Of a stretch of 64,000 bases of DNA, positions 1,120-56,944 are shown piece after piece; the stretch's first letter is position 1, and every line of letters begins with the position of its first letter. Both the position numbers and the translations under genes were made by a program. The notes under the pieces were generated by a model. That model was not told the origin of the DNA. It saw nothing but the letters and a program-made list of their open reading frames with translations, and searched no databases. Origin of the DNA: Spinacia oleracea (Eukaryota > Streptophyta > Magnoliopsida > Caryophyllales > Amaranthaceae); assembly GCF_020520425.1 (NCBI RefSeq), contig NC_079487.1, positions 134,748,385 to 134,812,384 on the forward strand, in the 5' to 3' direction.

Positions 1120-1636
1120 TACTTGCTAGACCTGTCAAAAATCAACCCGATCCGGAAATATTGGGTCTTGAACAAGATTTTGTGAACCGTAACCCGATTT
1201 TATCCAAACCTGAGCAATCTAAAAAGTAATGGGTCAAAACCCGACCGAACCCGTTTTTTATCCGACCAATTGAAAATCATTGTATTTATAGGAATAAATG
1301 AGATTATGAAGAACTTTAAGCATGTAAACACATTGTTGTTACTATAATACTATTGTTGGGTGTAATATGATTTTAATTTGAATTTGACTAAATATAAACT
1401 TGTATGGGAAATATTGTTAGTTTGTGCCCATATTTTGTATATTTATTACCTAAATTAATGAAAATATAATATGCGTTTTAAAATCTCTTAACCCGTTGGG
1501 TCAACCCGAACCCGAAAGTTCTGGGTCTTGAACAAACATTTGTAAACCCAAACCCGAAAGTAACCGACCCGAATTAACCCAAACTCGAAAAATAATTTGA
1601 TACAACCCAACCCGACCGACGCGTTTGACAAGTCTA
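1120..1636. mobile_element. CGGG-rich non-autonomous hAT-like element
   Basis: It is flanked by a perfect 8-bp duplication, ATTGGTGC, at 1112-1119 and 1637-1644. The right end, read inward, is TAGACTTGTCAAACGCG. The left side has TAGACCTGTCAAAAATC seven bases inside the duplication, so the left tip may be partly duplicated. The body is full of AACCCGAACCCG and GGGTCTTGAAC words around an AT-rich centre. It has no coding capacity. Confidence 0.72.
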
Positions 1637-2179
1637 ATTGGTGCCCATGGTGGCCTGGTGGGCATAAAATTGAATTGTGAGACAACAGGTTAACAGGACA
1701 GGTGTACAACTGTCATAAACTAAATTGATCTGACCGTAGTTCGACAATTCGCAATGACCTCATAATCCCATATACATCATTATCTGATATGACTCGAACC
1801 GATTAGAATCTTTCTGCAATCTATTGCAGAATCCAATTTGACATTTCTAGAAACCATCCCAGCTAAAGCCTAAACTATATCCGCTTTGAAGGCTTGAAGC
1901 GTCTATATTTCATCCGAAAATGTGACTCAATGTTTATTTATTTTCACTGACCAAAGGGATGTCAAGTTTGCTCAATTCAAATTTATTTGTTATGTGAGAC
2001 AATTCAAATTTCACTAATGACCCATAGGAAAATCCATCCAGAAAAAAAAAACAAAGATCAATTTTCATTTTAATAGCGGATCCATTAACAACGTTCCTAG
2101 AAACGCTAAAAAATGAAAAAATAAAATAAAATAAACGTTATTAAAAGGGTTTTCTGTAGTATCGGATAAGTCCTCCCCT

Positions 2180-5100
2180 TCATGGTCGGCGAGGAAACTT
2201 GGAGAAATCAGGAGGTCTTCTTTCATTATATGCTGTCTTCCCTTCATTACCTTCTTCTGTTCCGTAGAACAACAACGTTGCATCTCCTCCAATTTGCTTA
2301 ATTTTACAAGTCCAAGTAACATAATTTAGTAATTAGTATGTTGTTATACAATTGTACTAATTAATAATTTATAGTATGATTCAGATTCAGACAAGAAGTT
2401 GAGGTGTGTACCTGTAGTCCTGCATGACCATCATCAACTGCATTCAGAGCAGATTTGAGTACTCGAATTGCAGTAGGACTGTTTCTTAGGATCTCACGAC
2501 ACCATTTTATTGTCTCTTGTTCCAAACTCTCCAACTGCACAAGATTAATGTCATACAATTAAGCTCCTAAAACCCTTAATTCTGAATTAGTTACTGCAGA
2601 TAATTACTTACTGGTACAACTGTGTTAACAAGTCCCATTCTTTCTGCCTCAGCTGCAGGGTAAAACCTGGTAAGAAACCACATTTCACGCGCCTTTTTTG
2701 GTCCGATCTGCTTGACCAAAACCCGTGTCAAAAAACGTTGTATATGAGGTCAAGAGCAATTAATCAGTTGAGGTTTGATACTAACCAAACGAGACATGAT
2801 CGAACTTCCATAACCAGCATCGAAACTTCCTACCTGCCATACACCACCAGTAGACATGCATATGTTATAGGCAATAGTTACAACTCTACTCCGAACCAAC
2901 AATGTTCAATTGGTAGAAGGTACACCCGGTTGTATGCAGTTCTACTTGCAATCAAGTCGTTTTGTATTTTTAATTCTTCAAAAATACATTTTTTTATTGT
3001 TAAAAGCACATATTTCTCGATTAAAAGCACATTTTTACAAACAAAAAACATATCCGCTTTAAAAGAACATATTGTTAAATACAACACAATCACTACAAAA
3101 AAAAAGAAATTTTCTGAAAAAATGTATGTGCTTTTAAACTGTAAAAATGTGTGTTTAAACTGTAAATTTGTGCTTTTAAATTGGAAAAATGTGCCTTTTA
3201 ACCTGGTTGTTGTAGAGCTGCATACAACCGGGTGCACCTTCTAATTTGTGAACAATGTTCAAGAAGTGAAAAGCAATGAACAACCTTTGGACCTGTCTGT
3301 CCGAAAATGGCGTTATCAGCAGCAATAGTCAGATCACAGACCATGTGTAGAATATGTCCTCCTCCAACAGCATAACCAGCAACCTAAATTCAGACAAAAC
3401 AAAACAGACTTCAGACTTCAGACATCAGTAGACGTATTAGATGCATTTCTTAATAATGTTTACACTACAAATCACGATCATTTACATAATCTGTCAGACT
3501 TCAGACATCAGTAGACGTATAATATGCATTTCTTAAGAATGTTTACACAACAAAATCACAATTATTTACATAATCTATCATACTTCAGACGTCACTAGAC
3601 GTACAATATGCATTTCTTAAGAATATTTATACTTCAGATATCAGTAGACGTATAATATGCAATTAAAGCTAGACAAATCACATAGATTAGCAAGATGATA
3701 GAAGAACATATATATACCATTGCTATGACTGGTTTTGGAAGCCGTCTTATTTGGACCTGTTTGAAGATGAATGCAAGAGTGAGTAAAGATGCAACTCAGA
3801 GTATTAATGGAGACAGATTGAAACAAGTTAAGTTCAATGAAAATGAAAACACCTGCAAGTCCAAAACATTAAGACGGCCAATTTTTTTAGAGTCGACATA
3901 GCCATCCTTTCCTCTTATTGCTTGATCTCCACCACTGCAAAATGCCTTGGTTCCCTGTCAAAACAAAAAGTTTTTAAGAGTATTTCGCGAAACTTCACAC
4001 CAAAAAAAATCAAATCATGCAACTTCACACCAGTATTGTGTAATTATAGATATAAATGGTATAAAATGTGCATTGGCAAACGTGAAAAATAGAAACTGGA
4101 ATATTTCTGATCAGTTTTATCAGGTCTATATATATGTATCACATTTCACTAGAGTTGATCAAAGGTTCAAGTTTTACCTTGCCAGTTAGAATGATAACAC
4201 CAATTGAACTATCATCCCTTGCATCATCAAACGCTCGAATCAGCTCCTTGATCGTTTCTGGTCTAAATGCATTCCTCCTCTCTGGCCTGTTTATTGTTAT
4301 CTACTCACCACTATATATTATTAGATCATACTCATAATTATGTAATCAATAAACAGGGAAAATAAGATAGAAAAAAAAATAATAATAATAATAATAAGAT
4401 TGTGCAACGTGTAGACCTGATCAAGGCGGGCCGGGCCAGGCCAAACTTTGGGCCTTGTGCCCAAAACCCGCTATTTTGGTCGGGCCGATTTTATAACTAT
4501 AATTGTACTACATAGTTCTCGGTTGCCCAAATCCCACCCAAAAAAATTCACAATCAGACCGGGTTGGGCCGGGCACAGAAATGGGCCTAACATTCTACCA
4601 AAACCCCACAAATATTCGGGCCATGCTCAAGATGACCGATCTAGCAATGTATAAGAACTGATTTGGTAGGCAGTCTTATTACTTTTATAAGACTGCATTT
4701 TCTTACTTCAGAGCTGACAATCTCTAACCCGACCCTATTAAAACGAAGAATACGATAAAAAAAAAACATAACTCAAGCATTAAACTTGTACATACTTCCA
4801 TTGCAAAGAACCTATATATGAGTACATTGCAAAAATTCTGAATTTTTATTTAACTTTTCTTCTACTAAGAAGTAATAGTTGTAAGAGAGTGATCACCTTA
4901 GCAATGGCTTCACCAACGGCTTTTTCGTAAATGATATCAATAAAATCTTTACCAGAATCATCAGCAGCAAGTTTCCAGACGACAGGCTTCGACGAAACTT
5001 GACCATGAACCTTGTGGTAGTTATCATTCATGGAAGTAGTAGACAAGGAAATGGAGGGATGATGATGATGATGATGAATTTGGTGGGAATTCGAGAGTGT

Positions 5101-5181
5101 TAATTCTGGGTTGAGATGGTTGGCTACATTTGAGAGTCTCCTCTTTGCAACTTCCATTTCTGTCATCTCAGTTCTTGACAT
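2180..5181 (-). CDS. NS: 1,4-dihydroxy-2-naphthoyl-CoA synthase, peroxisomal (MenB-type naphthoate synthase)
   Basis: This crotonase-fold enzyme closes the second ring of the naphthoquinone in phylloquinone (vitamin K1) synthesis, converting succinylbenzoyl-CoA to dihydroxynaphthoyl-CoA. Nine coding exons, all in phase: 5181-4897, 4300-4178, 3954-3853, 3756-3718, 3383-3285, 2833-2786, 2707-2612, 2534-2412, 2296-2180, giving 343 aa; as I recall, the Arabidopsis enzyme is about 337. Residues 15-23 read RLSNVANHL, an exact RLx5HL PTS2 peroxisomal import signal. The acyl-CoA/oxyanion region CSGGDQ (142-147) and the glycine loop YAVGGGH (187-193) are present, and the end is SKFPRRP. A natural run of six histidines (36-41) sits in the linker before the enzyme domain. 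The start is the ATG that provides the PTS2. Introns 1 and 5 carry transposon insertions (4412-4643 and 2910-3250). Identification is secure. Confidence 0.95.
2910..3250. mobile_element. Small element with palindromic ends in intron 5 of the naphthoate synthase gene
   Basis: The ends form inverted repeats, TAGAAGGTACACCCGGTTG on the left and its near complement on the right. The interior is AT-rich with repeated TTAAAAGCACAT / CTGTAAAAATGTG words. A 12-bp direct repeat AACAATGTTCAA flanks it (2898-2909 and 3251-3262), which suggests a Mutator-like 9-12-bp target duplication. The interior style resembles the element at 51702-53204. Two overlapping open frames on opposite strands here come from the inverted structure and are not genes. 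Confidence 0.65.
3414..3663. repeat. Intronic tandem repeat, unit about 84 bp, three copies and a part
   Basis: Within intron 4 of the naphthoate synthase gene, the unit beginning CTTCAGACATCAGTAGACGT and running through GCATTTCTTAA and TTTACATAATCT recurs with moderate divergence. The last copies are shortened. Confidence 0.8.
4412..4643. mobile_element. CGGG-rich hAT-like miniature element in naphthoate synthase intron 1
   Basis: It begins TAGACCTGATCAAGGCGGGC and ends ATGACCGATCTA. The flanking 8-mers GCAACGTG (4404-4411) and GCAATGTA (4644-4651) match at six of eight bases, as expected for an older target duplication. The body contains the family words GTGCCCAAAACCCGC and GGGCCGATTTTATAAC. 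Confidence 0.65.
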
Positions 5182-5363
5182 TTTTTTCAGAGGAAGAAAA
5201 ATGGGAAAAATGATGTTTTATTTTGGTGTATAATATGGGAAATATGGTGATTGGATAAGATAAGATATAATCACAATATCAGATTTCTGTTTTGGGTTTT
5301 GCTTTGCCAAATAATAGTACTGCTAAAAGGTCCAAAACTTTAGAAAAGACTAATCAGCTAGCT

Positions 5364-5685
5364 TAGAGCTGATCATCTTCACTCCAGCCCGAAAAATAGT
5401 GGGTTTTGGACAGATTTTTGAAACCCAAATACTAGGCCCAGTTCAGCCCGACCCAATTTAATCTTTTTTCAGACGATTTTTACGCAACTCAAAACTGGAA
5501 TTATAGTTATAAAGTTGAATAGACCCGAAAATGTCCCGAAAAGCCATTACATTTGGCCTAAAATAGCAGGTTTAAGAAGAGAAAAATAACCCAAATTTTG
5601 GCCCGACACATTCCGACCCGGCAAAGTGGGCATAATTTTTCGGCTGTGGCCCAGCCCAAAACCTGCCCGTATATGATCACGTCTA
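5364..5685. mobile_element. CGGG-rich hAT-like miniature element upstream of naphthoate synthase
   Basis: It begins TAGAGCTGATCATC and ends TATGATCACGTCTA, an imperfect terminal inverted repeat. The flanking 8-mers AGCTAGCT (5356-5363) and AGCTAATT (5686-5693) match at seven of eight positions. It lies about 180 bases upstream of the naphthoate synthase start codon, so in or close to its promoter. Confidence 0.7.
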
Positions 5686-5693
5686 AGCTAATT

Positions 5694-9700: not shown

Positions 9701-12700
9701 CTAATGGCACCAATATCATGCAGAATGTCTTCAGCAGCTATTGTTTCAGCACGAATTCGTGATTCAGCGAATGCCACATCTTCTGGAATGTCCTTGTCAA
9801 GGTGATGGCAGACCATCTGTATGATTACAGAAGAAAGAACAGAAGTATATTAAATGGGGGTACACACAAATAGACAGACAGCGGAAGAGAGAGGGGCATA
9901 CCAACATGTCAAGGTGTTCATCTACTGTATTTGAAGTGAAAGGTCTAGTAGGATTTGTTGAAGAAGGAAGAACATTTTTAACTCCACAGACTTTGATTAT
10001 ATCAGGAGCATGACCACCACCTGCACCTTCGCTGCTCAAAAAACACGTAATGTCAAGTTAATACTTCAGTGTATTTCACATACTGAGTAACATTATGCAA
10101 GTCACACCTGTGATACGTATGAATCGTTCTTCCTTTAAATGCATCAATTGTATGTTCTACAAATCCAGATTCATTCAATGTATCAGTGTGGATATTGACC
10201 TGCCATTGAGACCAAAAAAAAAATAGCCTGTAATGAGTGTCAAAAATTATAATCTGTAACTAAGACTAAGATATCAAAAACTAAAAACTGAGCATGAAAT
10301 AATGCAGCAAGTCTCACTTGCAACTATTCTGCTGCTAGCTTGCTTCTATTTCCAAATTAACAGCTAGAAATACTACAAATATAAGCATCAAACAATCAAT
10401 TTTCATATATTTATAATTTATATATTCAGGGAGGGATTAAAGTAAAAGAGAGAAAAGAGACAAAGAGAGGGTATATTTGTCAAAATAAAGGCCTTCAAAG
10501 AACTGTTGGCATAAAGTATGTGAGTAATTTTGGCACTTCATAGTTATATTGGGAATTCCCTATGAGTCTTCTGGAAAATCACTCTAAATTCAGGTGCCTT
10601 GTATAATTCCGTCTTAAAATGAAACCGTGCACATCATACAATTTGGTAAACATGGCTCTTAAGAAGATACTAACTCCGTTCCTTAATGTTCTTGACTCTT
10701 ACTATTTGCAAAAGAATTAAGAAAAGAAGAAAGAAAGTACAAAAAGTGGGGTTGAAAGTGGAAAAAGTAAACGCGTGGGAAAACTTATACCCTTTTGTGT
10801 GGGGTAAGGGGGTAAAAGGGTAAAAAAAATCATTGCCAAAATAGAAGTGTAAAGAACGAAAAGGAACGGCCTTATGGGGAAAGCGTAAAGAACAAAAAAA
10901 AACAGATTTAGTACTAGATTCCAGAACAAGCCATGAAGATCAAATATGCTAGGTCTACAATATAAAAGTAATGATATCTGGAACTATAATCATCTGGATA
11001 TTAATCCATCTAACATATACTAACTTGACATAAATGCTATTACCTGAACATCAAATTCTTCTGCAACGTTGAGACAATTATCTATTGCAGCAGGAGTGGT
11101 TCCCCAGTCCTCATGAAGTTTCAGTCCCATTGCTCCAGCAGCTATTATTTCAGGAAGTCCTTCTGGCTTAGAACTATTTCCCTAGTTAAAGACATTTAAC
11201 AAAGAAAGTTTAAAGTTGATGATAAAACAAGAGATTGAATACACGAGAATCGTGACAGGCGAACAAAAAGCCAAATAGGCAAATACAAAAGGATGAAATT
11301 GTATTCATGCCACTTCCCAGCACCATAAAAAGCTTAAAATCCTACAGAATAATGATGCCTTAATGCAAGCCTACCTTTCCAGTGAAACCAAAATTCAATG
11401 GAATGTCATCGGTAGCTTTCAACATAAATTTCATTTGTGAAGGTGCGGGAGTGCAGGTAGTTGCACGTGTCCCAAAAGCAGGTCCGGTTCCACCTCCCAC
11501 CAAAGTAGTAATTCCTACAAATGCAATATAAGTTTAACGGGAAAAGGAGACGGGAAAATATGAATGACAAAGATGGTCCAGATCTATGTTACCCGGACTT
11601 GGGTACCCATGTCGGACACGGGTACGTGTCCAAGTGTCCTACTCGGCTATTTTACGAAATAATCATGATTTTGGTCCAAAATGAAGTGTCCAGTGTCCAT
11701 ATACATGTCCGAGTGTTGAGGATCCGACACGGGTACTTGAGGTAAAATGAAGGGTCCAAGTAACATAGGTCCAGATTGCTGAACATTATTTTGATTTCAG
11801 TGTATTCACGAGAAAAACATCACATACAAGCCAAGTATTTTGAAACCACAAACCACTACAACCTTTATAATGTTGCAGAATTTAGATCCTCACCACTGGA
11901 TATTGCTTCAGAAGCTAATTGAGGACATATGAAATGAACATGACAGTCTATAGCCCCTGCTGTAACAATCATTCCTTCTCCAGCAATCACCTCCGTATTA
12001 ACCTGATATATTTTACAGTCAAAATCCTAAACGCACGATGTAGGTGAAACAAAAAACAAAACATAAATTCCATCAATTCAAATAGCAACTTTTACCCCAA
12101 TGATCATGTTGGCCGACACACCATCCATTATATCTGGATTTCCCGCTTTTCCAAGGGCAATAATATCACCACCCTTTATACCGATATCTGCCTTAAATAT
12201 TCCAGTGTAATCAATGATCGTGGCATTAGTTATAACAGTGTCCAGAGAGGCAGCTGATGGGTACCCAGACGCCTGGCCCATCCCATCCCTCAGAACTTTC
12301 CCACCTCCAAAAACACATTCATCACCATAGACTGCTAGATCCCTTTCAATTTCTGCGAACAAATCAGTGTCACCAAGCCGGATTTTATCACCAGTTGTAG
12401 GGCCATACATGTTTGCATAAGCCTCACGAGATATAATTTTAGTGAAACTTAAATCTTCTCCAGTGACTCCTGTACTGCAAACCAATTAGGAGTGGAGCCT
12501 GTTATGAATTGAAGCTAGGAACTAACTCAAATGCCTTAGACATAAGTATAATACGCAGTAATTACTGACCTGGCATTTTCTTCTTCTGAATGCCCAAATC
12601 CTCTAGCAAGTACAGTGTCCATTATAGTTTTGACATTGGCGTCATCAACAGGACCATCAGCAATGTTGTTCCCCCCTCTAATGCATCTTTTGCCTCCAAT

Positions 12701-16731: not shown

Positions 16732-16769
16732 TTTGTAATTTTCCTTCAAGAAAATGGCACCACTATGAA

Positions 16770-18280: not shown

Positions 18281-18380
18281 GAATCAGAGGTTACAATTTG
18301 GGAGATTCTATAATGTTGATTCCACATGGAATCCGTGACGTGACCCAGTAGCCGATAGATGACAAAGACACAAATAATGT

Positions 18381-18703: not shown

Positions 18704-18711
18704 GATAAGTT

Positions 18712-18973
18712 TAGGCTTGATCAAAAGGTGAACCGGGCCGAGTCGTGGCCATAAAATCTGCCATTATATTTGGGCTAAAAATAGCGGGTTTTTCGAGCTA
18801 TTTTCGAGTCGGGACAAATTTATAATTAAAAGTGTAGTTTTACGTTGCCCAAAACCCGCAAAACAAAACATAATCAGGCCGGGCCGGGTCCGAAAATCGA
18901 GTCTACATATTCTGCCCAAACCCGCTAAATTTCGGGTCGGTTCAGTGGGTCGGACTCTTGTTGATCAGTTATA
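18712..18973. mobile_element. CGGG-rich hAT-like miniature element with perfect target duplication
   Basis: It begins TAGGCTTGATCAA and ends TTGATCAGTTATA, flanked by identical GATAAGTT (18704-18711 and 18974-18981). The body carries the family words CCGGGCCG, TTGCCCAAAACCCGC and GGGTCGG. It starts one target-site length after the Stowaway-like element at 18381-18703, whose right TA lies just outside the duplication. Confidence 0.85.
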
Positions 18974-19376
18974 GATAAGTTCGAATAAATTTAGAGTTAT
19001 CTTGACCTTGAAAGAAATACTCGTAAAACATTTATAGTCTGGTGAATTCATATAAGTTCAGCTAAATTTTAATGGTCCAATTACGTGTACTCCGTAATAA
19101 GTTTAATAGTAGTTTGCAATCATGTTCTAGTTAAAGTCCACCAAATAAATTTAGAAGATATCTGATTATAAACAAACTACCCCCTAAATCGAGTAAATTT
19201 AGGTGAGGATTTTCCCTAGCTTTTCCGAGTTAATCGCCGAGAATACACGTGGAGTAAATCAAGCGGCAGTTAAGGCAAATGGAAAAAAGGAATATCAAGA
19301 CATATTAATAGAGTTTTTTAGACAAAAATACCCCATAAAACTCCTAAAACTAATAACTTTAGGAAACTTTATGTAA

Positions 19377-19695: not shown

Positions 19696-19847
19696 CAAAT
19701 ACGGAAATACCGGAATTATATCTACACAATAATTCCTGCTCTGTAATATTTTACATCTGTTTGAATAAAACGCTTACATAGAGGTTCTGCTTCTCCTCAG
19801 TCCTCACTCCGCCGTCCACTTCCGCTCGTTTCCATAGCTCCAATCGA

Positions 19848-32970: not shown

Positions 32971-32973
32971 AAC

Positions 32974-36731: not shown

Positions 36732-39700
36732 ATGTTGCTAGGAAAGAAGAAGAAAAAATCAAGTTCATTCCAAGTAGACTACATTGTAAGTGTCCTAGAA
36801 ATCAAACCATGGCCACCTTCAGTAGCATTATGTTCCGTACAAACTGTGTTAATCCAATGGGAAAACGGCGACCAAAACACCGGGTTTTTACCCCCAGGAG
36901 TACCTTCCCTTAATGGATTCGAAGATGGAAAAATCGAGTTCAACGAGTTCTTCAAACTCACTGTAACATTAACAGGGAAAGATAACCAGTGTTTTCAGAA
37001 GAATAATTTGGAGTTTCACCTGTATGAACCGAAAAAAGATAAAGCTGTAAAAGGTCAGCTTTTAGGGACTGCTGTTATTAACCTTGCAGAATATGGGATA
37101 ATCAGAGAAGTTCAAGCAATGACAGCACCAATTATAATCACGAAAAAGGTTTCGAAAGGGACGAATAGTTTTCCTCTTCTTTATGTTCAGATTCAGCCTT
37201 TTGATAATGAAGGGATTGAGTCTGTTTTGAGGATGATGAGCGAGCAATGTGGCGATGATAATGATTCTGATCTCACTCTTTCTGTGACTGATGATGATGG
37301 GTATGCGTCTGCTGTTTCGAGGACTTCGAGTTTTCATGCCGGGAATTCTTCGTCTTTTCAGATGGATGAAATGCTTAACTTTGTCAATGTAAGTGTTTTT
37401 CAGCTTCCTGAATTGTCTGATAGTTTCACTATTATGCAGTAGATGGTCTGGGCCGGGTTCGGGCCAAGCTTCGGGTTGTTTTGTGCCCATAACCCGCTAT
37501 TTCGGGCTAGTAGATGGTCTGGGCCGGGTTCGGGCCAAGCTTCGGGTTGTTTTGTGCCCATAACCCGCTATTTCAGGGTAGTAGATGGTTCGGGCCGAAC
37601 TTTGGGCCACTTTTTGTGCCCATAACCCGCTATTTCGGGCCAGTAGACGGTCTGGGCCAAATTTGGGCCAAGCTTCGGGCCAAATTTTGTGCCCATAACC
37701 CGCTATTTCAGGCCGAGCCAAGCAGGTTTTTCAGGCAATTTTAGGGGTGGGCCAATTTTATAACTACAATTCCAGTTTTGAGTTGCCCAAAACCCGTCCA
37801 ATAAAGATTTAAAATCGTTCCGGCTAAAATCTGTCCAAAGCCCAATGCTTTTGGGTCGGGCTGGGCTCAATATGATTGGGTTTCTTATGTTAGTGTTTTC
37901 ATGTTTTTCAATGAAAATGTGATGCTCAAATTGCTGTTTCTTCTATTTAGTACGGAGTACATTGATATGCCAACTAATGTCTTAAAGCTTCGTTCTTTTC
38001 ACTTGAATCGCTTTATCTGAACTTATTTAACCATATTTGAACTTGTTTTTGGTTGTATAATGAATGAAAATGTGATGCACAAACTGTTATTTATGCCAAC
38101 TAATGTTTTAAGGTTTGTTCTTTTCACTTGAATCGCCTCATCTGAACTTATTTAACCTTATCCGAACTTATTTAACCTTATCCGAACTTATTTTTGGTTG
38201 TATAATGAACGTGGAACAAAACCAGACTCTTGAATGAAACTGCATCTGCTGCTACATAATTAACAGTATGCAGAAATCGAATTCCATCATACACTTACTG
38301 CTGAAGGGTGAATGTAACAGCTCAATAGATCATGTTTAAAGTTTCATGTTCTTGATGATTAGAGGGGAAAGAATATAACTTCATGAGTTTGAACCCTAAA
38401 ATTCCAGGTGGGTCTGAACTCAGACATACCAGGTAATGCAGAAGTACACGAATATGACGAAGGAAGAGTAAGGAACAAGGAACGCGCAAGAAGTGGGGAA
38501 GATGACTGGGCTTCAGGAAGAAGAAGTGCAGAAAGCAACACTAATGTATTTGGAAAATTCTCAGAAGTAGCTACAACAAGAAAACTTACCTCAAGAAGTA
38601 TTAGCACTCTAAAATTTGGCAAAAAGGGTCTTGATTTACATGGTTTAGGTGATAAATTGAAGCACATAAAATCCGTCAGACTTCCTACTGAATCTCCACG
38701 GGCCTCAGGCCCGCCTATTCCTCTGCATTTATTCGACAGAGCGAAGGAAGAAACGTCTGTAAAAGAGGTACAAGTTGACACCAAGAGTCAGGAAAAAAGC
38801 GACAAGAAAGAAAAGAAGTATGGGAAACCTGAACTCGAGTCTAAAATCAAGTTGCTTGAGGAAGAGTTGAGAGAAGCTGCTGCACTTGAGATTGGACTGT
38901 ACTCAGTTGCAGCCGAACATATGAACTCTAAAAGGAAAGTACATGCACCAGCTCGGAGATTAGCGAGGTTTTATCGCCATGTTTGTAAGATGGAATCACA
39001 AACTAACAGAGCAAGTTCTGCTAGAACTGTTGTTTCTGGACTTGTTATGGTTTCTAAAGCTTGTGGAAATGATGTGTCCAGGTATGAACATAAACAAGTT
39101 AAACAAATTGTGTATTATCATTTCTATAATCTCAAGCTTTTTAGATATTCCTTTGGTTTCAATTTTACTGAACTGAACTGATAAAACCGGATTTTCCCTG
39201 ATAAAAACTGAGTTGTACTGATTATAAGTTATAACAGAAATGACCTTGTTTTGGGTTATTTTTCTTAGACCTGACCAACTATAGCCCGACACGCAACCCG
39301 TCCCGAAAAGTGCGGGTTTTGGGTAGCCTAAAATATGCATTTTAGACCAAAACCCGAACCCGGCCTGAAAACCCCCGGTTCGGCCCCGCAAAATCACGCA
39401 CCAAATTTATGGGTTTGGCATGACATTTTGTGTTAAAACCCGGCCCGAACTGAATTTTGATCACCTCTAATTTTTCTGATGAGCAGGCTGACTTTCTGGT
39501 TATCAAACACGATAATACTGAGAGCTATGGTGAACCAAATAACTGAAGGAATTCCTCCTCAACCTGAACTAGTTGTCACTGAGACTAAATCTGGGAGAAA
39601 GAAGTCAGAGAAGAAATCTACCATAAACAACTCAGTCGACAGCTTAGGTGATTGGGAACATCCACAGACATTCGTCATGGCATTAGAAAAGGTCGAAGCT

Positions 39701-42130
39701 TGGATCTTCTTTCGCATTGTTGAGGGTCTATGGTGGCAGGTTTTCCCCTAAATTCTTCAGTTTTTTTATACCTTCATTAAAGGTTTAAGATTACTGGTTT
39801 TGCTAACTTCATGTGCTTTTGCAGAGTTTTATTCCTCATATGCAGCCAACGAAAAAGAAGAAGAAAGGAAAGAGGCTGAACTGGAAGAAATCTCAGAGAT
39901 GGAAGTTTGGTTTGGGGGATCAAGAGCAAGGGACTTTCTCCATAGAGCTCTGGAAGAAAGCCTTCCAGGATGCTTGTGGGCGGCTTTGTCCCATTCGAGC
40001 TGGTGGTCATGATTGCGGTTGCTTGCCAATGTTGTCGAAAATGGTATGTGTCTTCGTTTCCACTGTTTTCTCAATACCATCACAATGGTTACACCAGACT
40101 AGACCTGATCAACTATAGCTCAGCCTGCTGGCCCGATCTGACCCGGCCCGAAAAGGTGCGGGCCTGGACATCCTTAAATATGCATTCTAGACAAAAACTC
40201 AAGCCGGCCCGGTTCCGGCCCGCAATACCCGCAGCAAATTTATGGGCTTGGGCATGTTTTTTTGTGTTAAAGCTTCGCCCGAATTCTGATCATCTCTACA
40301 CCATACTAGAACTGATCAATTATAGCCCGACCTGCTGGCGGACTCTGCCCGAAAAAGTGCAGGTTTGGGCAACCTAAAATACGCATTTTCAGACCAAAGC
40401 CGAGTCCGGCCCGAAAAGCCAGCACCAAATTTATGGGTGTAGGCATGCTTTTTTGAGTTAAAGCCCTTTCCGGCCCGAATTTAGATCACCTCTACACCAG
40501 ACCTCTGACATTTTCATTTTCTGCATTCTAGGTAATGGAGCATTTGATGGAAAGACTAGATGTTGCGATGTTTAATGCCATTCTTCGTGGCTCGGAAGAA
40601 GAGTTGCCAACAGATCCAATGTCCGACCCGATCAGTGAACTTAAAGTCCTCCCCATCCCTGCTGGGAAATCAAGCTTTGGTGCTGGTGCTCAGCTCAAAA
40701 ATGCTGTAAGTTTTAACAGTATTCGATCCTCCTATTATATACTCCATCAGTTTCTGTTCCAAATGCTTGTAACTGGAAACTGGAATGATTGAATGACATA
40801 CATAGACTTTGTTGCTTAATTGATTTCTTCAACTGTAAATAATCAGGTTGGAAACTGGTCGAATTGGCTGAGTGACTTTTTTGGTCTTGAAGAAGATGAC
40901 GACCCGTCAAAGGATCAGGATGAAACCAACGAAGAAGAAGATGCCGTCAAGGCCTTTCGTCTCCTTAATGCATTGGGTGATCTTATGAGGCTTCCCCTTG
41001 GGATGCTTGCTGATTCCACCACAAGGAAGGAGGTCAGTAAAACTCTCTTTAAATGCTAACACTTCGAGGTGGCCACGTACCGAGCCGTGTAATCCCACGT
41101 GTCAGGTCCCTCGGGCCGTGCCTAAATGGGCCATAGGAAAGTCGTACAGTGTCGGGCTCGTTCGTCTATCTTTTCCATAAATGAGACCCATGCACAGACC
41201 GTCCCACGTGCATGTCAGGCCGAATTGTGCCGTACTAGCGGGCTTCCTTACTAATTTAAAGAATTTTTTGTTATTGTTTAAAAATAAGCATGTTGACGTA
41301 CGGGCCGACCCGTCGTGCTCGTACTAAATTTCTAAAATGATGCTCAATGCACGGGCCATGGCCATCATCATGCCTCTCATGTTGCGTCGGGTTTACAACG
41401 GGCCTATTCCAGGCTCAGGTAACCCACACGATGACCCGACCCATGCCCAACTCTAGTGCCAACACTAATCTACATTATCCCATTTTGTTATTAGCCTTTT
41501 AATTCCTGAACTGGTAGGGAAGATCTATTGGGTACCAAATCTGAAGTTTGTAACCATCAGCTGAAAATCCATTGTTCTGATATCTTGGCTTATTCTTACA
41601 ACTTTTAGGTATGTCCTATCTTTGGCGGGTATCTTATCAAAAGGGTCTTCACCAATTTCGAACCCGACGATTTCTCTCCGGATCCCATTACCGAGGAAGT
41701 TCTCGAGGCTCTGGCATCCGAGGTTAGCCCCTTTGCTTCTTCTAAGTAACAGATTTCTCTGCTAACTGTACTGCACCTAATAATCTGAATTCCTTTCTCC
41801 AACCAGGATTCTCAAGAGACTTCAAATGGTTGTATTATAAGCTTCCCTTGTGTTGCAAAACCCGTAGTATACTCGCCTCTTCCGGCCGCATTATTCTCGA
41901 GTTTGTTAGGAGACTCGAGTCAGAAGAGAAACGGGTCATCGTTACTAAGAAAAGGACATAACAGCGACGATGAGCTTGAAAAGCTGAGTGTACCACTAGC
42001 TTCGATCAATGTTCAGAACATATGCCTTGAAACTGCCTCGTCGAAACCCAACTGTATGCCCAAGGGGATAGGCGGCAGGGAGGTTGTCAGGTATAAACTG
42101 TTGCAGGAAGCATGGAGAAATGGCACCTGA
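36732..42130 (+). CDS. EEIG1/EHBP1-type NT-C2 domain protein
   Basis: Eight exons, all in phase: 36732-37388, 38408-39081, 39487-39739, 39825-40043, 40532-40705, 40847-41032, 41609-41722, 41807-42130, giving 866 aa. Residues about 8-160 (VDYIVSVLEIKPWPPS...LYVQIQPF) are the N-terminal C2-like domain found in plant PMI1-related and EEIG1/EHBP1 proteins, thought to bind membranes. A Ser-rich linker follows, then a Lys/Glu coiled coil (KKYGKPELESKIKLLEEELR) and a conserved C-terminal region: PARRLARFYRHVCK, VSKACGNDVSRLTFWLSN and WEHPQTFVMALEKVEAWIFF. No catalytic site is visible. Members of related families act in organelle movement or membrane trafficking; the role here is inferred only. Introns 1, 2, 4 and 6 are largely filled by CGGG-rich miniature elements. 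Close to Arabidopsis At3g01810-type proteins as I recall. Confidence 0.92.
37440..37884. mobile_element. CGGG-rich element with four-fold amplified left end, intron 1 of the NT-C2 gene
   Basis: It begins TAGATGGTCTGGGCCGGG. The terminal unit of about 62-71 bp (ending CCCATAACCCGCTATTTC) is repeated in tandem, starting at 37439, 37509, 37580 and 37642. The flanking 8-mers TTATGCAG (37432-37439) and TTATGTTA (37885-37892) match at six of eight bases. The first two units are almost identical, so amplification was recent. Confidence 0.65.
37909..38215. repeat. Two-copy intronic repeat, about 150 bp each
   Basis: The block from AATGAAAATGTGATGC through GCCAACTAATGT to GTTCTTTTCACTTGAATCGC and TGAACTTATTTAACC occurs twice in intron 1 of the NT-C2 gene. 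The second copy has an extra duplication of TTATCCGAACTTATTTAACC. Confidence 0.7.
39266..39469. mobile_element. CGGG-rich hAT-like miniature element filling intron 2 of the NT-C2 gene
   Basis: It begins TAGACCTGACCAACTATAGC and ends TTGATCACCTCTA. A perfect 8-bp duplication ATTTTTCT flanks it (39258-39265 and 39470-39477). The right duplicate lies nine bases before exon 3, so the insertion lies against the splice acceptor. Length 204 bp. Confidence 0.88.
40100..40298. mobile_element. First of two back-to-back CGGG-rich elements, intron 4 of the NT-C2 gene
   Basis: It begins TAGACCTGATCAACTATAGC and ends CTGATCATCTCTA. The left target copy is CACCAGAC (40092-40099) and the right copy is CACCATAC (40299-40306). 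It carries CCGGCCCG and AATTTATGGGCTTGGGCATG words shared with the next element. Confidence 0.85.
40307..40494. mobile_element. Second back-to-back CGGG-rich element, intron 4 of the NT-C2 gene
   Basis: It begins TAGAACTGATCAATTATAGC immediately after the shared target copy CACCATAC and ends TAGATCACCTCTA before CACCAGAC (40495-40502). Together with 40100-40298 it makes the order target-element-target-element-target. The two elements are clearly related but diverged, which favours two insertions at one site over a recent tandem duplication. Confidence 0.85.
41063..41457. mobile_element. GC-rich hAT-like element in intron 6 of the NT-C2 gene
   Basis: It begins TTCGAGGTGGCCACG and ends CATGCCCAACTCTAGT, a weak inverted repeat. 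The flanking 8-mers are GCTAACAC (41055-41062) and GCCAACAC (41458-41465), seven of eight matching. The body has CGGGCC, CCGTGCC and ACCCGACCC words. Related in style to the TAGACCTGATCA group but with different tips. Confidence 0.62.
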
Positions 42131-46272: not shown

Positions 46273-46439
46273 GGTTCAATACTTAGCTAGTTGCTACTTC
46301 TTCTGTCGTCAAAAAATAACAAATGTCAGTTTGTTATTAAAACAATATAATCGGCATCGCTTATTAACAAGTAAAAATATCGTATCCAGTGCACAATGCT
46401 TAACACGACACCTAAATTACAACCTAGATATTCACCACA

Positions 46440-46594
46440 ACTTTGTTTTCCCGTGGAAAATATCTAGCCACACTCACTTGTGTCATAGGAGTGTCTAATT
46501 TAATTTCTCGTGGCTGCATAGCATAGCCATGGACCCGTTTTAATTACTTGTGCCACGATTCTTTCCGTGGCACGTGCAAGTGAGGTTTGTAGTG
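46440..46594. mobile_element. CACTA-type (En/Spm) terminus with subterminal repeats
   Basis: Read inward on the minus strand from 46594 the sequence is CACTACAAACCTCACTTGCA, the start expected of an En/Spm element. It is followed by an inverted subterminal pair GTGCCACG / CGTGGCAC and more CGTGG words. No partner end was found on the other side, so the element is either truncated or its second end is too diverged to see. Confidence 0.45.
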
Positions 46595-48764: not shown

Positions 48765-50616
48765 TAGGAGTGTCAAATCGGGTCATCGGATCGGTTTCGG
48801 ATCGGTTATAAACGGTTCGGGTCCTGTCAAAATCGGATAATGTCGGGTGAATGTTTCTATCCGGGTCAATTCGGATCGGTTCGGATAACTTCGGGTTCGG
48901 GTGAAGTCGGATAATTAATTGTTTCGGGTTCGAGTCGGTTTCGGGTCGGGTAATTTCGGTTCGGCTAAATCTCGGGTTCGGTTTGAACCGGTTCGGGTTA
49001 AAAACGGTTTTGTGTCGGTTTATTTTGGTTCGGGTCTAGTTTGGTTCGGGTGCATATCGGATACGGTTGCATTTTGACCGGTTTACTGCGGGTACGGGTC
49101 ATGTTCGGATCGGATAAGTCTCGGGTTCGGGTGAATGTCGAATTCACTTAATATTTTAACCGGTTTACTGCTGGAATGTGTCATGTCTGGATCGGATAAA
49201 ATCTCGGTTTCGGGTCAAGTTTGGATCGTGAGTCTCGGGTTAGGGTCAAGTTCAGATCGGTCATACCTCGGATCCGGGTCAATTACATATTGAGTTTGCG
49301 GTTTGAGCTAGGATCGGGTTGGTAGTATTCTTATGTTTTATGGATCGAGTAACTATTGAGTTCACTATCAAATCATATCGCTTTATTATTCTAATATCTC
49401 ATGCCAAATAATGAATTTTTAGAATTCTACTTCCTCCGTCCAAAATTAACCTTTACACTTATCAAGATTCGTTGACACTAAATTTTACGGAGTAGAAGAT
49501 AAGTTATTGTTCATATAAATATTAATTTATTGTAAAAGTAGACGTGAAATGAGATAGTGAGATTCTCCGTATTATTTATTGAAATATAAATGTGGTAGAA
49601 GATAGTGTCATAGTGGAGGGTTAATACTTGTTTCCATAAAACTCAACCGAAGGATTGACATTACTTATTGCTTAAGAAAAAAAAAAAATGTGATAGAAGA
49701 TAGTGGAGTGTTAAGTAAAATAAATGTGATAGAAGATATCTAAATTAAGTAAAAGTGAACTTATAAAGTTAAATTTAGACAATTAAATATCCCAACAATG
49801 AATATTGTAATTGTCTGAAAGTTACATTTTCGCTCTAACGTAATAATGATTAACAAATGTTTTGAAGTATAATATTTGTAGAACCAAACTTCATCAACTA
49901 AGTTCTTGGTTGATTAAATAATACTGAAATGGGAAGACCAAAGATATAAAAAACTAGTATTGTAATTTTTAATTAATTTCATGCTGTGTTATAATGTTTA
50001 AGACCTTTAATTATATGGGAATAATGACAATAAATTAGCTATGATATGACAAAAATGTGTATATCGAGTTGGAGTTTAGGTAATTAATAGTTCACTTGTT
50101 TAGGTGAGTCATATTAATAATGAGTAGACTAAATTTTAGTTGGATCAAATCGGATAGAATAAAATCGAGTATGGGTAGTTACTTTTTGGCTATCGGGTTA
50201 AATCGAGTCGGGTTATTTTTGGATGCCGGGTACATTCAAGTCGGATAGGTGATAATTCGGTTGAAAGTCGGTTTCGGGTTCATTCGGATCGGGTCAAGAA
50301 CAATGCGGGTTAAATCGGATATCGGGTTTTATCGGTTCGGGTCGATTGCAGTTGTTATCGGGTAAAATCGGATTACGGATTGCTATCGGGTCGGATGCGG
50401 GTTCGGTTTGGTTAAAGCTAATCGGGTACTAATCGGGTTACGAGTCTCCTCGGGTTGTTAGCGGATCGGGTTCGAGTCTTTGATTCACGGGTCAAATCGG
50501 ATTTCGGATCAATGTCGGATCGGTTCGGATCTGATTCAAGAGCCTCTACTTCTCGGATATATTCGGTTCGGATGTCGGTCGGTTTCTCGGATCGGGTCAA
50601 TTTATGACAGGCCCTA
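48765..50616. mobile_element. 1.85-kb composite hAT-like element with CGG-rich arms
   Basis: It begins TAGGAGTGTCAAATCGGGTC and its right end, read inward, is TAGGGCCTGTCATAAATTGA. A perfect 8-bp duplication GACTTGTC flanks it (48757-48764 and 50617-50624). Left (48765-49330) and right (50160-50616) arms consist of densely repeated ATCGGGTTCGG / TCGGATCGG words. The centre is AT-rich and starts with a Stowaway-like end (CTTCCTCCGTCC near 49431), so another element may be nested inside. No transposase frame is visible. Confidence 0.82.
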
Positions 50617-50624
50617 GACTTGTC

Positions 50625-51692: not shown

Positions 51693-51701
51693 GTCTTTGT
51701 C

Positions 51702-53204
51702 CGCAAATTTTTGGCTATACCCGGGTACAGCCAAAGCTGGCTGTACCCCCATCCAAAATGATGTCGTTTGTGTTGTTTAAAATGAACATTAATATACTGG
51801 TACAAAAATGAACATTTACTATTTCGGAAATGAACATTTATTTATTTATTTGGAATGAACATTTACTATTTTGGAAATGAACATTTATTTATTTATTTGG
51901 AAATAAACTACAAAAATGAACATTTACTATTTCGAAAATGAACATTTTTTTATTTATTTGGAAATAAACAATATAGGCTCTTGTAAAAACATAAAAGACC
52001 AATGAAGTGAACAATTTCATTATGAACATTAACCATATATTTATTGTGAACAAACAAATAAACAAAAAAGAACAAATAATTCAACAAAAAAGAACAAACA
52101 ATATAAAAAAGAACATAAAATTCCAGAAAAAAGAACAACCAATACAACAATTATGAACAATTTTATGATGAATTTTAAAGCCAACATGAAAGAACAAACA
52201 ATACAACAAGAAAGAACAAATACTGGTACAAAAATGAACATTTACTATTACGGAAATAAACATTTATTTATTTATTTGGAATGAACATTTACTATTTTGG
52301 AAATGAACATTTATTTATTTATTTGGAAATAAACTACAAAAATGAACATTTACTATTTCGGAAATGAACATTTATTTATTTATTTGGAATAAACATTTAC
52401 TATTTTGGAAATGAACATTTATTTATTTATTTGGAATGAACATTTACTATTTTGGAAATGAACATTTATTTATTTATTTGGAAATAAACAATATAGGCGC
52501 TTGTAAAAACATAAAAGACCAATGAAGTGAACAATTTCATTATGAATTTTAAAGCCAACATGAAAGAACAAACAATACAACAAGAAATAACAAACAATAA
52601 AGCAGATAATTATTATGAACAAACAAATAAACAAGAAAGAGCAAATAATTCAACAAAAAAGAACAAACAATATAAAAAAGAACATAAAATTCCAGAAAAA
52701 AGAACAAACAATGCAACAATTATGAACAATTTTATGATGAATTTTAAAGCCAACATGAAAGAACAAACAATACAACAATAAGTTTGATGAATACAAGAAA
52801 GAACAAACAATACAACAAGAAAGAACAAACAATACAAAAAGAAAGAATAAAAGATTAATGAAAAGTTTAATTATGAACATTAACCATATGATTATTATAA
52901 ACAAACAAATAAACAAGAAAGAACAAACAATATAAAAAAGAACATAAAATTCCAGAAGAAAGAACAAAAAATACAACAATTATGAAAATTTGATGATGAA
53001 TTTAAAAAACAACATGAAAGAACAAACAGTACAACAAGAATGAACAAACAGTACAACAAGAAAAAACAAACAATACAATAAGAATGAACAAACAGTACAA
53101 TAAAAAAGAACAAACAGTCGACAAGTATGAACAAACAATATGAGCGCGTCGTTTTTGGGGTACAGCCAGAGCTGGCTGTACCCGGATACAACAGTTAGCG
53201 ATAT
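51702..53204. mobile_element. 1.5-kb AT-rich element with palindromic ends
   Basis: The left end has CCGGGTACAGCC-AAAGC-TGGCTGTACCC and the right end GGGTACAGCCAG-AG-CTGGCTGTACCC, so the two ends form inverted repeats and each folds into a hairpin. A 9-bp direct repeat GTCTTTGTC flanks it (51693-51701, 53205-53213), consistent with a Mutator-like insertion. The left interior is a tandem array of ATGAACATTTACTATTT and TTTATTTATTTGGAA units (51800-52490), the right of GAACAAACAATACAACAAGA units. It is non-coding; a second copy of its right end is at 1-352. Confidence 0.75.
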
Positions 53205-53951
53205 GTCTTTGTCAATGGGACTTAGTCGTTGCAGGATCAGACATGGAACAAGGCCCATAGACAATGGACTACGGCCCATTACTGTCCAACCTGACTACCT
53301 AAGTACTTCAGCAAAAATAAGCAAGTCAAGCAACTACTCAACTAGCCAACTATACATCTTTTCAAGTCGAATTTACTTTGCATTATTTAGCAAAAACACA
53401 CACACGCTCACAAACACAATTGAATTTTTGAATCAATTACTACCTCCGTTTTAAAATGATATTTACAGTTATTATTTACACAAATATTAAAATAAAAGAA
53501 GATGATTGCGTAAAAAGAAATAAAATACTCCGTATAAAATATGAATAAAGTAAGAAAATTGTGTAAAAAAATGAGTGCGTATAAGGAAAAAAAATCAATA
53601 AACTAAGAGAAATTGAGTACTTGATTATGTTCTCCTAATTTCGACTTTTAGGCGTTGCATATGTCATTTATGATCTTAAACAGGCATTACTCAAATTTGG
53701 ATTACCTTACTCTTCCTCTTTACTAAACATTATCCCTCCAAAATGGACTTCTTCAATTCACCCCCAACGTTTCTTGACCTTTCTCTCTCGTTTCGTCCCT
53801 TCTATCTTACTTATCCACACTTGAGTGTAAATGTTCACGTTATCTTTTGACTTTGATATAGTAACACCTTTTAATTCCACTATTAGCTATTTGTCTAAGA
53901 TCACTTTGGCTATTTCATGTAAAGAAACATATGCAAGCAAAATCATGGCAC

Positions 53952-54280
53952 TAAAGATGGCCGTGCCCCGTCCCACGGCCAGAGGTCCGACCCGACCCAT
54001 CTCGATGAAAGCCCGGCCCGGGTACAAAATAATACGGCTCGGCATGAGCACAAGTCGTGTGACGGAAACGGGCCGAATTTTTTGGAAAAGGCACTCAAAA
54101 CTCAGCAGAATTAGGCTTAGGCACGACAACCCGATCCGACAACCTATGGTATTGGGTCATGACTGGGCCCTGTTTTTAAACTATTCAGCCCAACCCGACA
54201 TGGCACGAAATAGAGTGGGTTTGGTTTGGGCCCGGTCCGTTCAGGCATACGGCCCGAAGCCCGGACCATGACCATCTTTA
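53952..54280. mobile_element. GC-rich miniature element downstream of the p24 gene
   Basis: Ends TAAAGATGGCCGTGCCC and CATGACCATCTTTA are inverted repeats; the body has CCCGGCCCGGG, GGCTCGGCATGAGCAC and ACCCGACATGGCACG words. No target duplication could be matched. Open frames on both strands across it are compositional. Confidence 0.6.
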
Positions 54281-54570
54281 ACTGTAACTCTATAAGTACC
54301 TACTAAAACTGGTCGTTCCTACTTCCTAGTGCAAGGAATGCTATACACAAAACAAGTTGGTAGTCGCTTGCATACAACTCAACATAAACCCTGAGATAGC
54401 AAGGTCGATCTGGTGCTTGCTAAATTTGAAGAGCAATTTCATACCACTGCGTATATAAATTAATGTTTTGTAAAGAACTAAAAAGTTTAGGTAACTTAAT
54501 TACAAGGAAAAGAGGGCTCAAAGTTCTGAAAGAAGACTACTCAGTAATGCGATAAAGAAGAAGACATGTA

Positions 54571-56349
54571 CTATATAAGTTTCTTTTTCTGAAAATAGCT
54601 CTTCAGATACCACACTTGGAAAACTGAAGCCGTAATACCCACGCAAAGGGACACAATACTTAACCAAGCAACTCTAGCATTGGTTTTTTCACTTACTTCC
54701 CTCATTCCGGCTTCCCTGTGAAAAATGATTCAACACATCATATGAATATGTTATAAATCTTATACTTCTTCGGTTCCGAAAATATCGCACCATTTATTTT
54801 TTACCCTATTCACACTACGACTTTGATCATTTTTTGTGATTCGTTCATAAGAAAATTTTAGTCGTGTGGGGTTAGGTTAGATTCATATCGATATATATTT
54901 TCTAAATATTAATTTTTTATAATTTTTACTATACATGATTTTAGATATTAAGAGTCAAAGTATTGGTTAGAAGAGTAAAAGTCAACCACGGGGTTAGGAA
55001 ATAATTTATAACTACATAATGTATATATGAGCGACAGACATTAGGGGTGAGCAAAATTCGGGTCGGGCTGAGCTTTAACACAATAATTATGCCCAAATCC
55101 ATAAATTTGGTGCGGGTTTTGCGACTTCTGGCCGGTGTCGGGTTTTGGTCGAAAATGCATATTTTAGGGTGCCCAAACTTGTACTTTAACAGATTAGAAA
55201 CTAACCCTAACAGGCTAATTTATTTTTCCATTCTCTCTGGTCCTCCTCCACTGTCATTCTCTTAGCTAGTACTCCGCAGCCACCATAAAGAAAAATAAAA
55301 ATAAAACAAAAATGAATTCGCCATTATCATACTGGAGTATTCTAGTGTGTTACCTTCAAAAATCAACATGAAAAACGCCATTATCAAGTGCTTAATTGTT
55401 ACTTTAAAAATACATATTGCCGCAATCTTCACCTTCAACTGTTTTAAGTGGTTGTTAATCTCCTCCTTTTTTCCAGTTAAATGCGTGTGGTCATATTTTG
55501 ATGATTCTTTTTTCTGGGTTTTGAAGATGTTAGGTGTTTGAATTAAATTAAATTGATTTTTGAAATTGATAGTTTTTCCCTTAATTTTAGCCGAGTGATC
55601 TGGTTCCAAAAGATTAGACCAGCGTGGATGTGAAGTGAGAGAGGGTACCTGGATTTCAAATAGAGTAGATTCTGATGAATTGATTCAACTGCTGCTTCAA
55701 GTTTTGCGAATTCAAGTTCAACACCCTACACAAGTGAAACAAGAGCAATAATCAGCACCTAAAAATGCCGATTGCCAATCCATGGGAGTTAGGAATGTTA
55801 CCTCAATATGCTCCTTCTTTGCAACAGACTCCCAGTCTTTAGCAGCAATCCCAATTTTCCAGTCAAGATTCAGCGTTGCAGATTCGTGATTACCCTCAAC
55901 CCAGAAACAAGCTACATAGCTACCAATTTCACTGGTTGTAAACGCAAACTGACCATAAGTCACATTTTCTCTATGGTAAAGATTGTTTCCATAGGGAGAT
56001 GTCACCTGAAATACTAATCAATTCATCAATTACTCTCAAAATTCAATCATTCTAATTCAATAATTCAAATTCATTAACCTAAACCCAGAACATCACAAAA
56101 TTACTGAGTAATAATAATACGATTCGGGAAGAAGAAGGAGAAGAAGACCTTAGCAGAAACAGCGGGAGGCGCGCGGCCTTGTTCATCGATGATAACATAA
56201 TCAGCAACGACGACGGTATTAGTCTGGATCTCTTCAGAAACGCACTTAGTACCAGTACTTGGTAGATTCACCCAGATTCCTTCAGAAATATGACTGTTCA
56301 TCGTCAAGCTTAGTAACACACCAACTACTAGTACTGTACACCAACTCAT
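54571..56349 (-). CDS. p24-delta type transmembrane emp24 cargo receptor
   Basis: Four exons, in phase: 56349-56149, 56005-55802, 55725-55649, 54715-54571, giving 208 aa. A signal peptide ([20 protein letters not shown]) is followed by the GOLD domain, with [20 protein letters not shown] opening it, then a coiled coil ([20 protein letters not shown]) and one membrane span at about 176-198 ([20 protein letters not shown]). The cytosolic tail YFQKKKLI carries the aromatic COPII signal (YF) and a dilysine KKxx COPI signal, exactly as in p24-delta proteins that cycle between ER and Golgi as cargo receptors, for example for ER-retrieval receptor and GPI-protein traffic. An upstream in-frame ATG at 56445 would add a 12-lysine run from a CTT microsatellite in front of the signal peptide, so the later start is preferred. 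Confidence 0.94.
55041..55180. mobile_element. CGGG-rich element fragment in p24 intron 3
   Basis: It begins TTAGGGGTGAGCAAAATTCG, continues GGTCGGGC, and carries AATTTGGTGCGGGTTTTGCG and GGTCGAAAATGCATATTTTA words shared with the NT-C2 intron elements. The right end is not recognisable, so it is probably truncated. Confidence 0.55.
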
Positions 56350-56395
56350 CTCTCTTTCTCTCTCTTCTTCTTGCCCTTGCCTGGAAAAGAAAACC

Positions 56396-56429
56396 TTCTT
56401 CTTCTTCTTCTTCTTCTTCTTCTTCTTCT
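56396..56429. repeat. CTT microsatellite in the p24 5'UTR
   Basis: About eleven CTT units on the plus strand (GAA/AAG on the transcript). It would encode polylysine if translation began at the upstream ATG; it is better read as leader sequence. Confidence 0.85.
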
Positions 56430-56710
56430 TTACTTCATGATTCATGGATTTCTCTTCTTCTTTATTTAATTTCAGACACGTACTCCCATCCTACGTGGCG
56501 TTTCCGTCTCCAATTACCTCATGCCACCTGTCCCTTGGATTGTACACGTGGGCGGTTACTTTATTTTTATGTTTAAAAATACACCTACCCCATCGGCCCA
56601 TTTCTTCAAGCATTTAAGTCCAATGTGAAATCTTTGGGCTAAATAACTTTCAAGGACAAGCTCACATTAACTGAAAATGACTATTTTCCAGTACGAACAA
56701 CAGCAGGAAG

Positions 56711-56944
56711 TGGATCTGATCAAAAGGCGGATCGGGTTCGGATTCAGGCCAGGCTGAGACATAAAATCAGCTCGTGTGTCAGATCAAGATTCCGGCTGAT
56801 TTTTTGTGCCCAAAAGTGTAGTTTTGTGTTACCCAAAACCCTTGAAATTTTTAAATTTTCGGACAGGGGCCGAAAATTTAGCCTAAAAATTCTGCCCAAA
56901 CCGGCCAAAAGCCGGGCCGGAGCAGCGGGTCGGGCTCATGTCCA
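56711..56944. mobile_element. CGGG-rich miniature element upstream of the p24 gene
   Basis: It begins TGGATCTGATCAAAAGGCGG and ends GGGCTCATGTCCA, an imperfect version of the family ends, with AAAGCCGGGCCGGAGCAGCG inside. No matching target duplication was seen. Confidence 0.5.

Follow-up and report, generated by a model that had tools for sequence, protein, structure and literature searches.

A 64,000-nucleotide stretch of the spinach (Spinacia oleracea) genome, positions 134748385-134812384 of contig C1 and referred to here as the window, carries a set of short GC-rich units with ends like TAGASSTGATCAA, and these units were studied both in the window and across the genome. An earlier note, made from the sequence alone, had described at least twelve CGGG-rich miniature elements of a single family in this AT-rich DNA, with 8-bp flanking duplications that pointed to a transposase of the hAT type. 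The window is indeed AT-rich (36.7% GC), and profile models prepared from genome copies placed nine stretches, of 42-51% GC, in one related set of miniatures that splits into two related subfamilies, A and B. The family-B model was trained on 35 copies, the window copy at 39266 among them, and the family-A model had no window copy in its training set. The family-A set consists of 30 sequences that include overlapping loci (L002/L003 and L007/L008) and hence fewer independent copies. The nine stretches are listed below.

4404..4651, minus strand: family A miniature, element 4412-4643, model match 4406-4645; decayed duplication GCAACGTG/GCAATGTA, 6/8
5356..5693, plus strand: family A miniature, element 5364-5685, model match 5361-5663; ends TAGAGCTGATCA/TAGACGTGATCA; duplication AGCTAGCT/AGCTAATT, 6/8
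18704..18981, minus strand: family A miniature, element 18712-18973, model match 18710-18976; perfect duplication GATAAGTT, 8/8
37415..37886, minus strand: family A relic, profile match over the whole span in three pieces
39258..39477, plus strand: family B miniature, element 39266-39469, model match 39263-39475; perfect duplication ATTTTTCT, 8/8
40092..40298, plus strand: family B miniature, first of a tandem pair, element and model match 40100-40298; outer duplication CACCAGAC
40299..40502, plus strand: family B, second of the tandem pair, element and model match 40307-40494; target copy CACCATAC, right copy CACCAGAC
55042..55211, minus strand: family B copy, partial, profile match; absent from the earlier list
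56740..56951, minus strand: family A relic, decayed, profile match in two pieces

Miniature elements in the window

The internal words that the units had been said to share are present, with GCCCAAAACCCGC at 4459 and 18847, AATTTATGGG at 39404, 40237 and 40428, TAGACCTGATCA at 4412 and 40100, and GGGCCGGG in 12 places, nine on the plus strand and three on the minus strand. The nine stretches make up the part of the proposed family that holds together. Membership is not supported for the units at 1120, 41063 and 48765, which, like one at 53952, were matched by neither model, and a single family of twelve or more was rejected. At 11604, 30086, 35538, 54188 and 54886 there were weak matches to one or two copies, which were dropped when the profile models gave no match. 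Flanking 8-mers had been proposed at ten sites. Four of these are strong, with seven or eight identical positions (18712, 39266, 40100 and 40307), and the flanks at 4412 and 5364 agree at six; the pair at 1120 is offset by 7 nt, and the proposals for 37440, 41063 and 48765 were left without support.

The two family B units at 40092-40502 lie in the order CACCAGAC, unit, CACCATAC (40299-40306), unit, CACCAGAC. The duplication is perfect (8/8) across the whole pair, and reaches 7/8 for the 40100 unit alone and 7/8 for the unit at 40307. The units are 72% alike, and the first is 74% alike to the 39266 copy; because their mutual identity is about that to the 39266 copy, the arrangement is read as two insertions at one target and not as a recent duplication. 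Family members 2-22 bp from another were also seen at three of 80 focal loci (L074, L072 and L077), so that insertion beside older copies is weakly indicated, the numbers being small and free of a null. The family A relic at 37415-37886 contains an internal GC-rich unit of 71 bp, repeated about four times in tandem at 37438-37713; its right end and its duplication were both sought and neither was found.

Ends, target duplications and empty sites in the genome

The searches were extended to the 894,210,420-base assembly of 242 contigs, with loci drawn from six chromosome-sized contigs, C1-C6 (114.8 to 189.1 Mb); spinach has 2n = 12 (PMC6337768). The exact word TAGASSTGATCAA occurs 1,702 times (837+865), compared with 30 (17+13) for the reversed control pattern. 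Twenty convergent TAGASSTGATCAA pairs within 400 bp of each other on C1, among 100 places listed, were then chosen by their ends alone, with the flanks unseen, and scored by their junctions. At a length of 8 bp the flanks were perfectly duplicated in 14/20 and matched at 7/8 or better in 19/20, compared with 3/380 for mispaired flanks. No perfect duplication was seen at the remaining lengths between 4 and 13, and none reached a level like 7/8 at lengths 5-7 or 9-13; at length 4, five of the 20 reached 3/4.

A search with the 39266 copy returned 41 matches (best 40 of 330 candidates, ranked by similarity to that copy), and the full-length ones, the window copy aside, are 74-84% identical to it. 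Both ends lay within the set limits in 35 of the 40 family-B loci, the window copy included. In this sample the 8-bp duplication was perfect in 11/35 and at least 7/8 in 15/35 (14/34 without the window copy), against a control rate of 0.17%, and flank agreement peaked only at length 8 (mean 0.59, mispaired 0.29). The family-B copies measure 188-222 bp and the 20 C1 pairs, by coordinates, 220-377 bp. The units therefore have features of hAT elements, namely the 8-bp duplication and short terminal inverted repeats (TAGASSTGATCAA in the 20 pairs and similar ends in the 35/40 family-B loci), and those of miniature inverted-repeat transposable elements (MITEs), being short, bounded by inverted repeats, numerous and, judging from their size, non-coding. 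Their mean GC content of 46% (family B) and 49% (family A) departs from the AT-rich body that is usual for MITEs but does not strictly define them. As a separate observation on this similarity-ranked sample, 30 of the 41 family-B places fall in the outermost 5 Mb at one or other end of a chromosome, zones that make up 6.8% of the six contigs; distal clustering of the family is thus weakly suggested.

The full-length family-B copies diverge by 16-26% from the window copy. Transitions from the family-B consensus were found at 17.0% of CpG, 15.3% of CHG, 10.6% of other C/G and 4.3% of A/T positions, a pattern as expected if this DNA was methylated and decaying. The compared copies look old and appear, from these base changes, to have decayed preferentially at CG and CHG sites.

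The earlier note had also proposed that empty sites be sought in relatives; sites with a single target copy were found as other copies of a dispersed repeat in the same genome. Two of the 20 C1 elements share flanks, both lying inside this repeat. The joined flanks of one of them, with the element and one 8-mer removed, were used as the query, and 38 of the best 40 of 302 candidates ran uninterrupted across the junction; the two that were split are the query copy and a copy on C6. The second flank-sharing element, at C1:79.74 Mb, fell outside the scored places. Three empty sites that were fetched read ...AATTATAAATTA CTTTGTTT G(C/T)ATATAAG..., with a single CTTTGTTT, while in the query copy CTTTGTTT flanks the 313-bp element left and right. 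These three one-copy empty sites show insertion, not excision. The filled C6 copy has the same site, the same duplication and an element 80.5% alike over the aligned stretch, which suggests that the two filled copies descend from a single insertion, copied afterwards together with the repeat around it.

These data bear on whether the units are mobile elements at all. Simple or telomere-like repeats, GC islands or gene fragments would fit the CGGG-rich composition, with its strong strand bias (207 CCCG against 18 CGGG on the element strand of the 35 family-B copies, and 318/64 in family A), and the tandem 71-bp unit of the one relic. However, they would hardly have constant ends, empty sites and an 8-bp duplication in 19 of 20 cases. 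An array of the simple or telomere-like kind was rejected on the duplications and empty sites, and explanations of this sort as a whole are regarded as next to impossible.

Coding hAT elements and their terminal word arrays

Genome-wide, 150 matches to the Dimer_Tnp_hAT domain were scored (best of 459 candidates). Nine genomic regions with coding hAT genes were retrieved, one of them extended, and scanned for ends and duplications in a scan without a shuffle null. A pair of ends with a duplication was found around the gene in six of the nine.

L089: full-length coding hAT; ends TAGGGCTGAGCA; duplication 8/8
L090: full-length coding hAT; ends TAGGGGTGTTAA; duplication 8/8
L091: full-length coding hAT; ends TAGGGGTGAACA/TAGGGCTGTTCA, differing at 3/12 end bases; duplication 8/8
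L093: ends TAGACCTGTKCAA; duplication 7/8
L095: contig C3, 4,136 bp, 634-codon frame; both ends TAGAGCTGATCA; duplication TTGTATTT, 8/8
L097: contig C3, 3,749 bp, 710-codon frame; both ends TAGACCTGATCAA; duplication TGTCTAGA, 8/8

The 13-base end word of the miniatures is present at both ends of L097, and its first 12 bases at the ends of L095. The frames of both elements, taken from stop to stop, contain zf-BED, hAT-like RNase-H and Dimer_Tnp_hAT domains, all over the cut-off. The autonomous hAT with shared ends that the earlier note had proposed to look for has two candidate coding counterparts, L097 and L095. By blastp, L093, L095 and L097 are mutually 43-54% identical and are 31-35% identical to L089, L090 and L091. 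A coding source closer than L097 or L095 was not found (best 63 of 567 candidates scored), and the nearest relatives of L097 (83%, 67% and 79/70%) had internal stops or matched in two pieces, with ten stops in the 83% relative and seventeen in the 67% one. Two facing TAGACCTGATCAA ends were also seen on C1, at 78013141 and 78023746, and could bound a long element, as they lie 10.6 kb apart.

Hexamers containing CG were counted in the two 200-bp end zones of each element and in its middle, with 500 random interior samples as the null. The counts of the top word (ends/middle) were 29/4 for ATCCGA in L089, 26/1 for GCTCGA in L090, 24/0 for CGGTCC in L091, 21/0 for CGGGCC in L097, 6/0 for CGGGCC in L095 (tied with two others) and 6/0 for CGGGCC in L093. 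The interior-sample maxima were exceeded in five elements (maxima of 8 in L089, 6 in L090, and 4 each in L091, L097 and L095), and in five the CpG density was 6.4-10.4 per 100 bp at the ends and 1.1-1.7 in the middle. Dense end arrays of ATCCGA, GCTCGA and GGACCG words were noted in L089, L090 and L091.

The miniatures were compared with these arrays. Positions 1-59 of the 204-bp family-B consensus match positions 1-69 of L097 (72%), and 174-204 match 3719-3749 (81%), that is, both ends of the coding element. CGGGCC occurs 51 times in the 35 family-B copies, compared with a mean of 5.4 and a maximum of 10 in 30 dinucleotide shuffles, and the L097 ends share the strand bias of the miniatures (CCCG 24, CGGG 5). 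Because the words are terminal in the coding elements and the consensus matches both ends of L097, the body of a miniature would correspond to end zones of the L097/L095 type minus the middle. On these sequence comparisons, the best reading of the CGGG-rich body is a pair of end arrays that have come together, and the C-rich word, lying mostly on one strand along the entire element, produces the telomere-like look. The earlier note had called such a body unusual for MITEs; it is, and the CGGGCC arrays of the coding elements offer a simple reading of it.

The preferred interpretation of these data, to which we give a probability of about 0.86, is that the miniatures are non-autonomous hAT MITEs of ~190-380 bp and that a transposase of the L097/L095 lineage, docking on the end arrays, once mobilized them. 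The transposase would recognize the short terminal repeat TAGASSTGATCAA, its BED zinc finger may dock on the CG-word arrays (CGGGCC/CCCGAC type) occupying the outermost ~200 bp of the coding elements, and insertion would create the 8-bp target duplication. A miniature would keep little beyond the two end arrays and so have a CGGG-rich body. The words are read as BED docking sites by analogy with Ac and Hermes, from which we infer that a transposase of the L097/L095 type would bind them and that its lineage would have mobilized the miniatures. In Ac, according to the accessible part of PMC3260210, the transposase binds to AAACGG hexamers located in the last 200 bp of the ends, and the terminal ~200 bp are needed for transposition. 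The earlier hAT interpretation is thus supported, by the duplication peak at exactly 8 bp, the one-copy empty sites and the coding hAT with the same ends, and the observation behind it is partly confirmed, for the core of its list.

It could be that the miniatures are hAT derivatives in which the CGGG words are GC-rich filler, kept by descent and not as docking sites. The docking role of the words is argued from analogy, and in maize certain Ds1 elements are mobile although they lack AAACGG hexamers (PMC3260210, in the portion available). Note, however, that GGGCC words fall within the terminal 350 bp of either side of the coding elements (21/21 in L097 and 7/8 in L095), and that different CG words fill the equivalent zones in three other hAT elements; a filler origin is considered improbable.

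Several points weigh against the preferred interpretation. The 200-bp zones were set after the ends had been read. L095 is only slightly enriched (a count of 6, interior maximum 4), and in L093 the top CG word (6) stays below the interior-sample maximum of 17 and CpG shows no excess (2.1 per 100 bp in both ends and middle). Beyond the ends, the miniatures resemble L097 only loosely, and for L095 the family-B consensus gives no more than a weak best match (19 bp, E 0.015), so that both elements count as candidate sources at most. The BED domains of Hermes bind subterminal repeats of the left end and, as far as the available text of PMC10368747 goes, none at the right, so not every array in an element with arrays at both ends has to serve for docking. 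No pair of ends with a duplication was found around L092 (extended with L098), L094 or L096, which are possibly genes with decayed ends or domesticated genes; for L092 (with L098) and L094, several ~60% relatives of L093 of similar length were noted in the genome. Finally, the window taken alone gave six pairs with TAG...CTA ends, roughly matching ends and 8-mers with at most one mismatch, where 20 block shuffles gave a mean of 2.8 (range 0-9). The matching of flanking 8-mers, which the earlier note had set against random pairs, is thus far above control genome-wide but near chance within the window alone.

A wider reading is that each plant hAT family has a 'barcode' of its own, a dense subterminal array of a single CG-containing word (CGGGCC, ATCCGA, GCTCGA or GGACCG) that is matched to the BED finger of the family's transposase and, as every such word includes CG, is readable as a methylation sensor. 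This is a tentative idea that we think rather doubtful. If it were true, the miniatures would consist of hardly anything but barcode arrays, and the transposase that moves a given miniature could be predicted from the word together with the BED sequence. The terminal word arrays across hAT elements are the part worth following, as a direct test of the matching between BED finger and transposon end.

Related systems and other units of the window

Miniature hAT elements with coding relatives are a known, ordinary kind. The closest named groups, likened here by description only, are hATpin, reportedly described by Moreno-Vazquez in 2005 and said to be named for highly stable folding, and BvhATpin, reportedly described by Menzel in 2012; both are said to be hAT MITEs. 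They are short, non-coding plant hAT derivatives, including those of sugar beet, a relative of spinach. The spinach miniatures might be of this published type, with fold stability and not the end arrays explaining their body. Their hAT-type ends and small size agree with it, and two of the nine window members were folded and proved more stable than their shuffles on average (z -1.65 and -2.00). Nevertheless, the gain is modest, placing them mildly above shuffles, and 11/200 and 4/200 shuffles folded equally well. This reading as a whole is judged unlikely, and end arrays brought together are preferred as the origin of the body.

The ends of Ac differ from those of the spinach miniatures. The likeness to maize Ac/Ds, as the accessible part of PMC3260210 presents that system, lies in a coding hAT with many short relatives that share terminal inverted repeats, subterminal hexamers and 8-bp duplications; the word in Ac is AAACGG, unlike the CGGGCC/CCCGAC type of spinach. 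The C-terminal region of L097 matches four solved chains named Hermes transposase or transposase (E 5.5e-10 to 1.5e-9), although the match covers at most residues 540-640 of 710 and Hermes is an animal element with other words. The BniHAT MITEs of Brassica nigra are likewise hAT MITEs with 8-bp duplications, and BniHAT-1 has 434 intact copies; they measure 666-673 bp and are 70-75% AT, whereas the spinach miniatures are ~190-380 bp with 46-49% GC on average (PMC7385995, from the part of the article available). Tandem hAT-derived MITEs are described in Atlantic cod, as units of ~1.3 kb at inversion breakpoints, while the spinach pair consists of units of ~190 bp separated by a single 8-bp target copy (PMC12368964, in its available text).

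The miniature family was not met by its ends or its name in the literature searched, which lay outside subscription papers and Repbase. Among the matches listed, the 12-mer end words had three occurrences, under paper titles not about transposons. Table 1 of a published spinach repeat survey, in the part available, gives 397 hAT sequences and 445 unclassified MITEs (PMC6337768). Set beside the 1,702 exact end words, these counts suggest that the group may be under-catalogued in spinach, although the numbers count different things. The present account would explain a puzzling class of GC-rich repeats in a plant genome that is AT-rich, and it offers candidate transposase sources for them.

One further unit of the window has a duplication-like flank of its own:

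1112..1644, no strand assigned: another hAT-like unit, ends TAGACCTGTCAAA/TAGACTTGTCAAA at 1127-1636, no family-model match

The exact 8-mer ATTGGTGC stands on both sides of it, 7 nt away from the left end TAGACCTG. The unit at 41063 reaches 7/8 only with irregular ends and has no family-model match; for that at 48765, no matching right end was found and neither family model matches. These GC-rich units have different ends, at 1112-1644 (TAGACYTGTCAAA), 41063-41455 (irregular), 48765 onward (TAGGAGTGTCAA) and 53952-54280 (TAAAGATGG), and may belong to further hAT-like families, each with CG words of its own.

Pfam gave no match in three open frames close to the 39-41 kb copies. The right duplication of the 39266 copy (39470-39486 region) is followed by GATGAGCAG, with a possible 3' splice site nine bases on.

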